Positions 20,331 to 32,402 of a stretch of 32,402 nucleotides of DNA are shown here, piece by piece. Source of the DNA: Desulfuromonas sp. (GTDB lineage Bacteria > Desulfobacterota > Desulfuromonadia > Desulfuromonadales > Desulfuromonadaceae); assembly GCA_028685815.1 (NCBI GenBank), contig JAQUDG010000017.1:1-32402 (forward strand). Reading direction: 5' to 3'. A model generated the notes under the pieces. The model did no database searches. It was given only the letters and a program-made list of their open reading frames with translations, and had not been told where the DNA came from. Position 1 is the stretch's first letter. Each line of letters opens with the position of its first letter. A program made the translations under genes and the position numbers.

Positions 20331-21089
20331 TTACTTAACCGCTATGCCGCTGTAAGCCACACCGTAGTTGTTGGTCTGGATATCCGCTGCAGTAAAAACA
20401 ATGCGGTAGTTACCGCGGTGTTGCGGCACATAGGTTGCGTTGAAGATGCCATTTTCACTCCCCAACTGCATTGTTACCGTCTCCACCAATTTCTCTTCAT
20501 CCCAGATTGCCGCCTCCACCTGGTAGCTATTGGCATCCCACATCCCGCCGTCAGTGATTGGGCAACCGCAGAGCATGGTCACGTAGGTACTGAGATTTAC
20601 CACTTCCCCGACTTCTACCTGCGTGTTTGCATGCGGGGAGAGCGGAACCAGCACAAATCCGTATAGATTAAACACTATCCCGTCCCCGACAATATCTTTT
20701 CCAGGAAGCATCCACACACTCTGACTCGCGTCTACGCTAGTTTTTCCGCTAGCCAAAGGCCCATGTAGGCGAATATTCAGCTGGGTAGGCGCGTCAATAT
20801 CCAGCACGGTGGTAAAAGCTGCGCCACCTTCGGTGCTGAGACGTTGCCCACGCACAATCGGGTTCTCCATTAAATCCTTTGTGCTGCCAGTACCCCCTGT
20901 TATCAAACCTTGCGCTAGCAATTCATGGGTAAATGCATGGGTAACACTCACCTGTACTCCAGCCATTGCGGTTCCGATATACTTGGCGTCATTGGCCTTG
21001 GCCCTGACAGTCAACGTTGTTTCCTGTGCCCACACATTTCCAATTGTGCTCAATAGAAATATCCCCAAGACCAGCGCGACTCTATGCAT
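20331..21089 (-). CDS. Secreted/periplasmic protein of unknown function with beta-sandwich-like C-terminus
   Basis: ATG 21089 with AAGGAGC upstream; Sec signal MHRVALVLGIFLLSTIGNVWAQ; mature region contains MLCGCPITDGGMWDANSYQVEAAIWDEEK. Confidence 0.75.
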   Translation of the reverse strand: MHRVALVLGIFLLSTIGNVWAQETTLTVRAKANDAKYIGTAMAGVQVSVTHAFTHELLAQGLITGGTGSTKDLMENPIVRGQRLSTEGGAAFTTVLDIDAPTQLNIRLHGPLASGKTSVDASQSVWMLPGKDIVGDGIVFNLYGFVLVPLSPHANTQVEVGEVVNLSTYVTMLCGCPITDGGMWDANSYQVEAAIWDEEKLVETVTMQLGSENGIFNATYVPQHRGNYRIVFTAADIQTNNYGVAYSGIAVK

Positions 21090-21254
21090 AATAAAATGCT
21101 CCTTCAAAGATAGGAATTCAAGTTTCAACAAAATCCTGGCTTGTCCTTCTCGCCTGAAAAGGCTAGCACGGCCCCTAGCTAAACAGCAAGATCAGCTAAA
21201 GATTGGCGCTAAAAATTTCATGCTGTAGCGAGGCTGGCGAAAAAGACGCAAAAA

Positions 21255-28208: not shown

Positions 28209-29117
28209 TCAAAGAACTACTGCATTTTTAAGATAGAAACTCCGAGTACATGCCATGAAGTCCTGCAGCAACGCCGAGGCATCGCACAGGCGCGTCACCA
28301 TACTGCGCTGACGCACATTGTTAAACCCTTCAAGGCGATACTCCACCAGCTCTCCACTACGCAGGTATCTTGCCACTACCGCTTCAGATACATAGGCTAT
28401 CCCTCGCACTGCCAGCAAGTCTTTGCACATCAACGCGTAATCATCGCTCATCATGACGTAACTGAACTTGCAGATATTGCCGCCCCTCTCAATGAGATTA
28501 CGGCATAGCAGATCGTAACAGCTACACCCGTCGCGGCGCGTGAATAGCTTGAAAGGATATAACTGTTCAAGGGTTACCTCTGCGGCGTCCAACCCCAACT
28601 GCGGCGAACCGACAAACACCATCCGATCTGGGGGTAATGGCTCAGACCTGAGGACGCTAAAATCTTGATCGCACAGATGTTCAACAATGGCGACATCGAA
28701 TTCGCCCGCCCGCAGTCCATCCAGGGCCTGCTGGGGGGTATTGAACAAAAAGCGTAAATCGTCCACATCCGGATGGGCAACAGAAAACTCATGCAACAGG
28801 TCGGGCATGTGTGCCACCCCCGTTGCCATGGTACAGCTTATGGCTAAGTTTTTCCGCTGCGCTAGTCGTTCCAATCCAGAAAACATTGCCTCTTCAAGGG
28901 CAATAATCTGGCGCGCTACCTCCAACACGTGCTGCCCCGCTGCCGTGGGTTTAAGCACTGGCCCGGAGCGATCAAGCAACTGAACGGCGCAACAGGCTTC
29001 CATGTTTTTCAGGCGCTGCGAAACCGCCGACTGAGTCAGATGCAGCTTTTCCGCAGCGCGGGAAAAACTCCCCTGTTCCGCCACCATTATCAGAGTGCGA
29101 AGATATTGTGTTTCCAT
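28209..29117 (-). CDS. LysR-family transcriptional regulator
   Basis: METQYLRTLIMVAEQGSFSRAAEKLHLTQSAVSQRLKNMEACCAVQLLDRS (LysR HTH); ATG 29117 preferred over the ORF start at 29204. Confidence 0.93.
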   Translation of the reverse strand: METQYLRTLIMVAEQGSFSRAAEKLHLTQSAVSQRLKNMEACCAVQLLDRSGPVLKPTAAGQHVLEVARQIIALEEAMFSGLERLAQRKNLAISCTMATGVAHMPDLLHEFSVAHPDVDDLRFLFNTPQQALDGLRAGEFDVAIVEHLCDQDFSVLRSEPLPPDRMVFVGSPQLGLDAAEVTLEQLYPFKLFTRRDGCSCYDLLCRNLIERGGNICKFSYVMMSDDYALMCKDLLAVRGIAYVSEAVVARYLRSGELVEYRLEGFNNVRQRSMVTRLCDASALLQDFMACTRSFYLKNAVVL

Positions 29118-29219
29118 GTTGTGTATGTCCCGGAGATGCGTGCGCAGAAGAGGGTGCCCTACTGGTTTAAAGCGGACACAACCTTTGATACCGTCTGATT
29201 TCACATCCTTACGTAACCC

Positions 29220-29468: not shown

Positions 29469-30554
29469 ATGCGAAGGAAGTTCAACACCAAGGCCTCATG
29501 GCTGGTGAAGGCCCTTCCCCTGCTACTGGTTCTGGGCGCGTGCGCCACAGGTACCATTCGGGAGAAGGTTCTGACCCTACCGGTTATCGAGGGGGCAACC
29601 TATGTGGGAGCAGATTCCTGCTACGGTTGTCATGACGGCATGGCCGGCGAGATGTTTGCAGCATCCACCGGTGAAGAAGGTTTCGCCAGAACCATCCACG
29701 GTCGCCTGGCAGACTGGGAGCTGATGGGTGCCGAGCAGGGTTGTGAGGCATGCCATGGCCCAGGGAGCCAGCACGTAGAGAACTACGGCGATTCTGACTA
29801 CATTATCCGTCCCGCCAAACTGACTTCGGATCAGGCATCCGCCATCTGCGTTAAATGCCACACCGATGGCAAACTGATGGACTATGTCCACAGTGAGCAC
29901 GCCCTAGGCGATGTCGGCTGCGCAGACTGCCACGACATTCATGCTGGCGTAGGCAAATTCAGCCTCAAAGCCAAAGACCCCGAGCTCTGCTACTCATGTC
30001 ACCAGGAAGAGCACGCCAAGAGCCACTTCCCCTCAACCCACCCAATTAAAGAAGGCAAAATGAACTGTTCCAGCTGCCACAATGTTCACGGCGCCGTGGG
30101 GGAAAGCCTCAATACTAACGAACGTCTCAACGACCTGTGCCTGAACTGCCACACCCGCTACCAAGGGCCGTTTGTATTCGGTCATGCTCCGGTTGAAGAC
30201 GATTGCACCATCTGCCACGATCCGCACGGTAGTGTCGTCAACAATCTGTTGGTGCAAAACGAGCCATTCCTGTGCCTGCAGTGCCATGAAGGACACTTCC
30301 ACATCCTGCGTGCTTCCAACCACGCGGTTGATCCAGCTGATTTTGCTACGCACAACGGTACTGGCGGACTCTATAGTGACCCCAAAAATGTCCTCACCAA
30401 TGCAGCTGGCCAAGCTAAGTCAGACCTCGTCAACGTACATGGCAGTGAAGGGTTCCAGACCTCGTTTGGCACGAAGTGTACCACCTGTCACAAAGTGGTG
30501 CATGGCAGTGACTATCCGTCTCAGCCACTTACTGGCGGCGGTCTGACCCGTTAA
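29469..30554 (+). CDS. DmsE/MtrA-family decaheme c-type cytochrome, predicted lipoprotein
   Basis: Ten CxxCH motifs counted (CYGCH, CEACH, CVKCH, CADCH, CYSCH, CSSCH, CLNCH, CTICH, CLQCH, CTTCH); lipobox LGAC in LLLVLGACATG; RBS AAAGGAG upstream. Confidence 0.95.
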   Translation: MRRKFNTKASWLVKALPLLLVLGACATGTIREKVLTLPVIEGATYVGADSCYGCHDGMAGEMFAASTGEEGFARTIHGRLADWELMGAEQGCEACHGPGSQHVENYGDSDYIIRPAKLTSDQASAICVKCHTDGKLMDYVHSEHALGDVGCADCHDIHAGVGKFSLKAKDPELCYSCHQEEHAKSHFPSTHPIKEGKMNCSSCHNVHGAVGESLNTNERLNDLCLNCHTRYQGPFVFGHAPVEDDCTICHDPHGSVVNNLLVQNEPFLCLQCHEGHFHILRASNHAVDPADFATHNGTGGLYSDPKNVLTNAAGQAKSDLVNVHGSEGFQTSFGTKCTTCHKVVHGSDYPSQPLTGGGLTR

Positions 30555-30574: not shown

Positions 30575-32402
30575 ATGAAGCAAAGCCAATTATGGCTGCT
30601 TGCACTGTTGTCGGTGCTGGCGCTTATGGTCACCACTTCCGTAGCTGTAGCCGGCGCAGATAATGCCCGTATCAGCGGTTTTTGGGAAATGGGGATGAGC
30701 GGCATCACCACCGACAAGAATGCAGCACGTGTTAATGAGTACGGTTCAGTCCGAAACGATGACGGTATCGCTTTAGCACCCAAGCTGAACCTTGATCTTC
30801 AAGTAGACAAATTCCTGCTCGAAGTTGAGAGCGAAACCAAAGGCCCCCGCGATCAAATGCATGAACTACGCATCGACGCTGGGCGCATCTTCCGCCTTGA
30901 TAGTGAGCTCAACATCTTAGAACACCGCAAGGACCACGAAACCCTGAGCCAAATGGGCGCAACAGGTCGCAACGATATCGGCGGTTCACAACCGAGCGTA
31001 ACTACCGATAAAATCTATGCGGACCTTATCAAGGCTACCGGTGACCCCAATGTTAGCATTGGTGGCGCTCAGATGAACACCTACGATCCGGCTGCCGCTT
31101 GGGATCAAGAAGTCAGCAACAATTATATTGTTACCCGGCGCGAATGGAAAAACGAAGCAGAACTGGTAATACCGCAACTTTCCAACATCACCTTCAAAGC
31201 AGGTTCTAGAATTGAAACCCGTGAGGGGATGGAGCAGGCGATCGGTCTGTCCAAATGTGACGGATGTCATGTGTCTGCCGCAGGAAAGAAGATTGATGAG
31301 CGTACCGAAGAATTTACCTTTGGAGCCACGGGTAAATTCGGCATCCTGACCGCTGACTACGAGTACATGAATCGTAGCTTCAACGAGGACGCCAACGCCC
31401 CCACCCGCTTTTACGATGTAATGCAGAATGGCAGTGCCGCCCATCAAATGCTATACGGTGGCGACAACTTCGAATTTGGTCGTACCCCAGATTCAGAAAA
31501 AGAAAGCCACATGCTCAAAGCGCGGGTTGATCTACCCCGCGACACCAGCATTTCTGCCAGCTACGTAAAATCAGATATTGAAAGCTCCAAATCATCCACT
31601 CAGGGCGATTACTTCCTGCAAGGAAGCAACAAGCTGAAAAGTGAGTACGAGTCCTTCGCGGCGAAGTTGGCGACTAAGCTCGGCAAATCTGCCACCTTTT
31701 CTCTGCGCGGCAAATATTACGAGATCGATGCTGATAGCAACTCGATCTATTACCCTGCGCGTGAAGCAGCTAACACCGTAAAATTCATTAACAATTTAGG
31801 CGTTACTGACAGCTACAGTTCCTCAGCGGCACGTGAAGTAAGTGAATTTGGGGCAGACATGATGTTCCGTCTGGCGAAATCCACGACCTTGCGCCTTGGG
31901 TATGAATATGAAGAAATTGATCGGGACGATAAAGAGCTTGGGAGAACTGAAACACATACCCTCAAAGGAGCTCTTAAGACTCGTATCAACAAAACCCTCT
32001 CTGCACGTGTCAGCTACAAATACCAGAGCATCGATGATCCCCTGCCTGGTGCCCACGTTGGCATCGCACAGCTCCGAGGCACTCCGGATGGCTTTGGATC
32101 AGGTCTGATGACTCTGCCTACCATTCAGGATACATCGGGCAACACCTTGTACTGGAACGATGTTTACCCCGCACGCGACCTCAGCTCTACCAGCCTGCCG
32201 GAAGATGTGCACGAAGCTAAATTCAGCAGCACCTGGGCTCCCTCTGCCAACATGGCTGCTACGATATATGCACGTCTACGCTATGAGGAGAACGATAGCG
32301 TCAAGTACGAACAGACCACCATCGTACCGGGAGCAACCTTCTGGTATGCACCAACCAGTAAGCTCAACCTCACCATGGCGTACAATTTCAGCAAACAGGA
32401 TA
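30575..32402 (+). CDS. MtrB/PioB-family decaheme-associated outer-membrane beta-barrel protein, incomplete (runs off window)
   Basis: Open from ATG 30575 (RBS AAGGAGG 30560-30566) to the window end; signal MKQSQLWLLALLSVLALMVTTSVAVAGA; alternating beta-strand pattern (e.g. TTLRLGYEYEEIDRDD...HTLKGALKTRINKTLSARVSYKYQS); directly follows the decaheme gene. Contains CDGCH at 31256-31270. Not listed in the supplied ORF track. Confidence 0.88.
   Translation, partial: MKQSQLWLLALLSVLALMVTTSVAVAGADNARISGFWEMGMSGITTDKNAARVNEYGSVRNDDGIALAPKLNLDLQVDKFLLEVESETKGPRDQMHELRIDAGRIFRLDSELNILEHRKDHETLSQMGATGRNDIGGSQPSVTTDKIYADLIKATGDPNVSIGGAQMNTYDPAAAWDQEVSNNYIVTRREWKNEAELVIPQLSNITFKAGSRIETREGMEQAIGLSKCDGCHVSAAGKKIDERTEEFTFGATGKFGILTADYEYMNRSFNEDANAPTRFYDVMQNGSAAHQMLYGGDNFEFGRTPDSEKESHMLKARVDLPRDTSISASYVKSDIESSKSSTQGDYFLQGSNKLKSEYESFAAKLATKLGKSATFSLRGKYYEIDADSNSIYYPAREAANTVKFINNLGVTDSYSSSAAREVSEFGADMMFRLAKSTTLRLGYEYEEIDRDDKELGRTETHTLKGALKTRINKTLSARVSYKYQSIDDPLPGAHVGIAQLRGTPDGFGSGLMTLPTIQDTSGNTLYWNDVYPARDLSSTSLPEDVHEAKFSSTWAPSANMAATIYARLRYEENDSVKYEQTTIVPGATFWYAPTSKLNLTMAYNFSKQD

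Follow-up and report, generated by a model that had tools for sequence, protein, structure and literature searches.

In Mtr conduits as described, the outer-membrane barrel is a passive insulator. The locus analysed here raises the question whether such a sheath may itself be a redox protein. Near the end of a 32,402-nt stretch of Desulfuromonas sp. DNA (the window), a gene for an MtrB/PioB-type barrel carries a CXXCH motif, which an earlier note, made from the letters of the window, had proposed as an extra heme site within the porin. We followed this motif through the translation, the missing gene end, relatives across the phylum, structural models and gene neighbourhoods.

A CXXCH motif in an MtrB/PioB-type barrel

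The bases and the translation bear out the reported in-frame CDGCH: tgtgacggatgtcat at 31256–31270 encodes C228-D-G-C231-H232 (codons 228–232 of the ORF starting with ATG at 30575), and C228 and C231 are the sole two cysteines among the 609 visible barrel residues. Protein shuffles yielded a CXXCH in 13 of 300,000 cases (~4e-5); this frequency, together with the conservation described below, rules out a chance motif. With a putative signal sequence preceding the motif, the barrel has the exported CXXCH expected of a c-type cytochrome (Table 1).

The barrel is a member of NCBIfam NF041027, the "GSU2204 family CXXCH-containing (seleno)protein" (cut-off 350 bits), and also passes Pfam MtrB_PioB (cut-off 23 bits). 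It stays below the cut-off of the TIGR03509 MtrB/PioB subfamily (41.8 versus 240 bits) and is, by these scores, a relative of that subfamily and not a member. The features of NF041027 checked here are present, namely a score above the cut-off, a CXXCH in the barrel and a UGA after the modelled region, the last of these on the continuation contig.

Table 1. Coordinates and supporting evidence for the predicted features of the barrel locus in the window
Feature	Position	Strand	Evidence or remark
Divergent LysR-type regulator, "multiheme cytochrome-associated" family	28209..29204	-	NF041036, 391 bits (cut-off 210)
GSU2203-family decaheme c-type cytochrome, 10 CXXCH, lipobox	29469..30554	+	NF041028, 453 bits (cut-off 325); translation
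GSU2204-family MtrB/PioB-type barrel, first 609 codons	30575..32401	+	NF041027, 571 bits; PF11854, 45.8 bits; cut by contig end
Putative Sec-type signal peptide, ~residues 1–26	30575..30652	+	Sequence inspection; N-terminal helix in models
His117, invariant in 75/75 selenocysteine (Sec) members	30923..30925	+	At the end of strand 5 predicted to be extracellular; may ligate the heme distally or contact it
His121, present in 65/75 Sec members	30935..30937	+	Lost in all four CXXCH-lacking cousins; alternative distal ligand
CDGCH, predicted heme-c attachment motif	31256..31270	+	C228/C231/H232; loop joining strands 7 and 8, extracellular by parity

The barrel gene continues through an in-frame UGA

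The window does not hold the full-length protein assumed in the earlier note: its contig, C76 of the host genome, stops at base 32402 and cuts the barrel. A protein search that used the C-terminal region of the closest relative located the missing gene end in the same genome, on the minus strand of contig C80 (L105/L107). Read in the reverse direction, the start of C80 runs ...SCVGWYHG-UGA-ANDVSSAQFGSIC... and continues to ...AIGYKF-stop, with ~4 codons uncovered in the gap between C76 and C80. Since the window stops before this UGA, the earlier reading missed the selenoprotein nature of the barrel.

Relatives were gathered, with their DNA, from the order, class and phylum; a single-sequence scan of genome contigs gave no match, and the alignment-based contig scan yielded 34 named loci. 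In every complete main-group relative the apparent ORF ends in CxG(W/F)Y(H/D)G (e.g. CVGWYHG) or a variant, followed by an in-frame UGA. Past it the frame is conserved for ~140–160 codons and closes with a C-terminal Phe, a residue typical of outer-membrane barrels. The UGA occupies one alignment column in 46 of 46 class members, and six Sec-free paralogs, which read straight through, have Cys at exactly this column. The host genome encodes SelB, SelA adjoining SelB, and a tRNA-SeC with anticodon UCA. The GSU2204-type barrel of the window is, on this evidence, a predicted selenoprotein, with Sec at the UGA. An initial guess taken from the family name, that Sec sits inside the CXXCH, is ruled out: the UGA lies ~390 codons downstream and both cysteines of the motif are encoded as Cys.

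A SECIS hairpin is predicted across 42 loci, with a 7-bp stem and an AGUUU loop that starts 22 nt after the UGA. Standard pairs fill 95.2% of the stem cells, and five of the seven pairs have changed on both sides. Covariation scored 0.412; shuffles scored 0.129 ± 0.020, and sliding the partner gave no more than 0.121. Folding of the host SECIS as a single sequence was not significant against shuffles (z = -1.15), and the case for the predicted element rests on covariation, not on this fold. The hairpin agrees with what is described for bacterial SECIS elements, that is, a loop of 3–9 nt, a stem of 4–16 bp, G in the first two loop positions and a distance of 16–37 nt from the UGA (PMC13188914).

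Were the UGA an ordinary stop, the barrel would be a 620-aa protein and the downstream frame a separate or decayed piece. Standard annotation would indeed close the ORF here, and the NF041027 model itself ends at the residue before Sec. Yet we find this reading scarcely credible: it is all but ruled out by the UGA in 75 of 75 members of a group defined by having it, with a conserved frame that continues to a C-terminal Phe, by the SECIS covariation, by the Cys paralogs, by the Sec machinery of the host and by strands 22–26 of the modelled barrel, which are encoded after the UGA.

Several loci stand apart. L013, a locus from the same genus as the window, was left out because its barrel frame is broken ahead of the UGA, through assembly error or gene decay; L165 has no intact reading of the barrel either. 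Two related genomes (L067, L073) have a SelB-like gene, recognized from its N-terminus, a short distance downstream of the Sec barrel.

Conservation of the motif across relatives

All 75 Sec-bearing members, drawn from across the phylum and averaging 35% pairwise identity, have Sec, CXXCH and H117; as the group is defined by the UGA, the counts for CXXCH and H117 are the independent ones. The earlier note had proposed aligning C228, C231 and H232 with homologs, and all three prove invariant in these 75 members and in the Cys paralogs. A 49-sequence alignment that includes the Cys paralogs retains only 13 invariant columns, five of which are His, Cys, Cys, His and Sec/Cys. Additional cysteines surround Sec in most members (C611 in 66/75 and C631 in 47/75, L007 numbering); Sec is more conserved than these flanking residues, which one clade lacks.

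Sec-free cousins of 611–637 aa (L150, L151, L153, L155, L159) keep both CXXCH and H117, more distant Sec-free cousins have CX2CH (L076, L077, L078), and distant cousins have CX3CH in the same place (L082, L087, L088; CATACH, CAGACH, CTTACH). In four cousins (L081, L083, L084, L085) the two Cys, the His and H121 have all been lost, and H117 remains. The Cys, Cys and His are thus kept across spacing changes and lost jointly, as expected of a heme c site. Because Sec-free cousins keep it, the CXXCH is, judged from these sequences, independent of Sec and the older or broader feature.

The same comparison bears on the distal heme ligand, for which we have no confident candidate. H117 persists in the four cousins without CXXCH, so its role is not specific to the motif, and its designation as a proven distal ligand is unsupported. 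Loss of CXXCH correlates better with H121 than with H117, but one Sec-bearing clade lacks H121.

A second, Sec-free paralog operon (L014–L019, L074, L075, L148) encodes a decaheme cytochrome and a barrel that has CTPCH and, in place of Sec, Cys. In L074 and L075, a gene with two CXXCH stands divergently beside it.

Fold and topology of the barrel

Two relatives were modelled with AlphaFold2: L007, which shares 72% identity with the window protein (mean pLDDT 79), and L128, a distant one (mean pLDDT 77). Each model contains 26 strands, and the best PDB match of both is 6r2q_B (MtrB), with TM scores of 0.76 (L007) and 0.73 (L128) and the next matches below 0.5. Odd-to-even strand connections are long (median 14 and 17) and even-to-odd connections tight (median 3 and 2). 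Strands 7 and 8 are joined by the connection that holds the CXXCH, strands 21 and 22 by the one that holds Sec, both odd-to-even and of the long class; by strand parity, the models support an extracellular position for both loops.

These models also address where the motif sits. The earlier note had placed it between predicted strands and named burial in a strand as evidence against heme; in both models of relatives it occupies an inter-strand loop, outside the strands. Of the two positions then offered for the heme, the periplasmic pool is disfavoured, because MtrB-type topology places the CXXCH loop extracellularly. The other, where the wire meets a surface cytochrome, holds for the location at the outer face and fails for the partner, as the two-gene operon has no surface cytochrome gene.

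The CXXCH of the L128 model is folded as a short helix, the usual form of heme c motifs. The Sec loop has pLDDT <50 in the models and is of low confidence. Since the two loops are ~14 of 26 strands apart, roughly on opposite walls by strand count, a heme and Sec could touch directly only if the hairpins bent over the pore.

Gene neighbourhood

Among loci with sufficient flanking sequence, nearly all have an ORF with 10 CXXCH immediately upstream of the barrel, whether they belong to Sec members or to Sec-free cousins. A multiheme ORF downstream is almost never found. The conserved unit therefore consists of the LysR-type regulator, the decaheme cytochrome and the barrel, without an MtrC-type surface cytochrome; the regulator of the window occupies the same position as in related loci. 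The clearest exception is L122, which has a 12-heme ORF downstream, a possible surface partner.

The decaheme cytochrome is expected to occupy the barrel. Its lipobox (LLLVLGAC; LVLGAC) makes it a probable lipoprotein; MtrA is a soluble periplasmic protein. In Geobacter sulfurreducens, GSU2203 and GSU2204 transcripts are up 2.7- and 2.4-fold with hematite (PMC4070692). Elsewhere in the window, a 266-aa ORF at 20331–21131 matched no family, and the other genes examined between 18589 and 28143 are ordinary (mltG, plsY, a chemotaxis receptor, lspA, ileS and a DNA glycosylase).

Proposed role and alternatives

We propose, with a probability of roughly 0.6, that the locus encodes a two-gene Mtr-type conduit in which an extra extracellular c-heme and a Sec redox site on the barrel replace the MtrC-type partner. 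The barrel would form the outer-membrane half of this conduit, made up of the decaheme lipoprotein and the 26-strand barrel. During periplasmic passage of the unfolded barrel, the CXXCH would be loaded with c-type heme by cytochrome c maturation, giving an eleventh heme at the outer mouth that the decaheme wire would feed with electrons. Sec, in a long hairpin across the mouth from this heme, may serve as a selenolate redox or catalytic residue and help to pass electrons to an extracellular acceptor, for which iron oxide and zero-valent sulfur are guesses. The barrel would replace a separate MtrC-type surface cytochrome. The suggestion of the earlier note that the CXXCH, if loaded, supplies an extra c-heme site is partly supported. 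A more far-reaching proposal, that the barrel acts as the extracellular terminal oxidoreductase through a surface c-heme, Sec above the pore and the decaheme wire, with no separate surface cytochrome, is tentative, and we put it at clearly less than even odds.

Two alternatives do without a heme on the barrel. The CXXCH might be a heme-free dithiol or metal site that works with Sec, and with the flanking Cys where these are present, in an extracellular thiol–selenol redox or metal-binding enzyme. Sec often pairs with thiols in known selenoproteins, and the invariant-looking C611 and C631 found around Sec in most members would suit such a pairing. A plain CXXC needs no His, however, and here the His is as invariant as the Cys pair; Sec-free cousins keep the CXXCH, and CX3CH occurs. 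Cytochrome c maturation, moreover, normally acts on exported CXXCH motifs, and the host also produces decaheme proteins. We consider the heme-free site unlikely. It is quite improbable that the motif is a structural or quality-control element, such as a disulfide or folding check, with Sec as the sole redox site. Barrels need folding checkpoints, and Shewanella MtrB reportedly has an N-terminal CXXC that would offer a precedent, but the motif studied here follows strand 7 instead of lying at the N-terminus, its His is invariant, and Cys, Cys and His were lost along with H121 in four cousins.

The third alternative accepts the heme and changes its role: it would be an internal component of the wire, near the last heme of the decaheme cytochrome, and the true terminal reductase would be a surface cytochrome encoded elsewhere in the genome, which could dock on the barrel. 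In MtrB, electrons normally travel only through the partner proteins (PMC7198977), and many multiheme cytochromes are encoded in genomes of the class. The operon itself lacks such a gene in nearly all loci, L122 with its downstream 12-heme ORF being the exception noted above, and this arrangement seems to us somewhat unlikely.

Relation to known systems

Membership of the family is already known. The window protein is a full match to NF041027 over its visible length and shares the CXXCH, nothing found sets it apart, and, as CXXCH stands in the name of this curated family, the motif was already catalogued; the entry comes without mechanism, topology or Sec context. A 2026 review places the GSU2204 family among prokaryotic selenoproteins and states neither motif nor function (PMC13188914). 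In the searchable literature, outside which likely relevant papers fall, we found no described function or published mechanism, and no account of the shared face of CXXCH and Sec or of the missing surface cytochrome.

MtrB of MtrCAB (PDB 6R2Q) and PioB resemble the GSU2204-type barrel in the 26 strands, the best structural match and the adjacent decaheme gene. They differ in that the 20 hemes of MtrCAB belong to MtrA and MtrC, with none in MtrB (PMC7198977), whereas the GSU2204-type barrel has a CXXCH and Sec and its operon lacks MtrC. Cyc2 likewise combines a single CXXCH and an outer-membrane barrel in one chain, as an N-terminal cytochrome domain on a 16-strand porin (PMC8406198). The GSU2204-type motif, in contrast, lies at residue 228 after seven strands, in a loop predicted to be extracellular, on a 26-strand barrel that has a decaheme partner; identification of the window barrel as Cyc2 was rejected, since it has neither the N-terminal cytochrome domain nor the 16-strand porin. 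In Geobacter, ExtKL (NF040886) is predicted to be a c-type cytochrome with selenocysteine and is linked to genes for extracellular electron transfer (PMC5877670), but it is a 5-heme cytochrome of another family and not a barrel.

Should both sites be loaded, the barrel would be an outer-membrane selenoprotein that takes part in extracellular electron transfer, and the conduit would terminate without a surface cytochrome. Dependence on Sec predicts a selenium requirement of the conduit. Standard annotation stops at the UGA and drops the last five strands, so earlier work may have handled a truncated protein. The invariant CXXCH and predicted Sec are kept by a large group of anaerobes (75 Sec-bearing members in the sample, across the phylum). 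A Sec barrel of the same type also occurs in a MAG labelled Spirochaetes (L166), through transfer or mis-binning.
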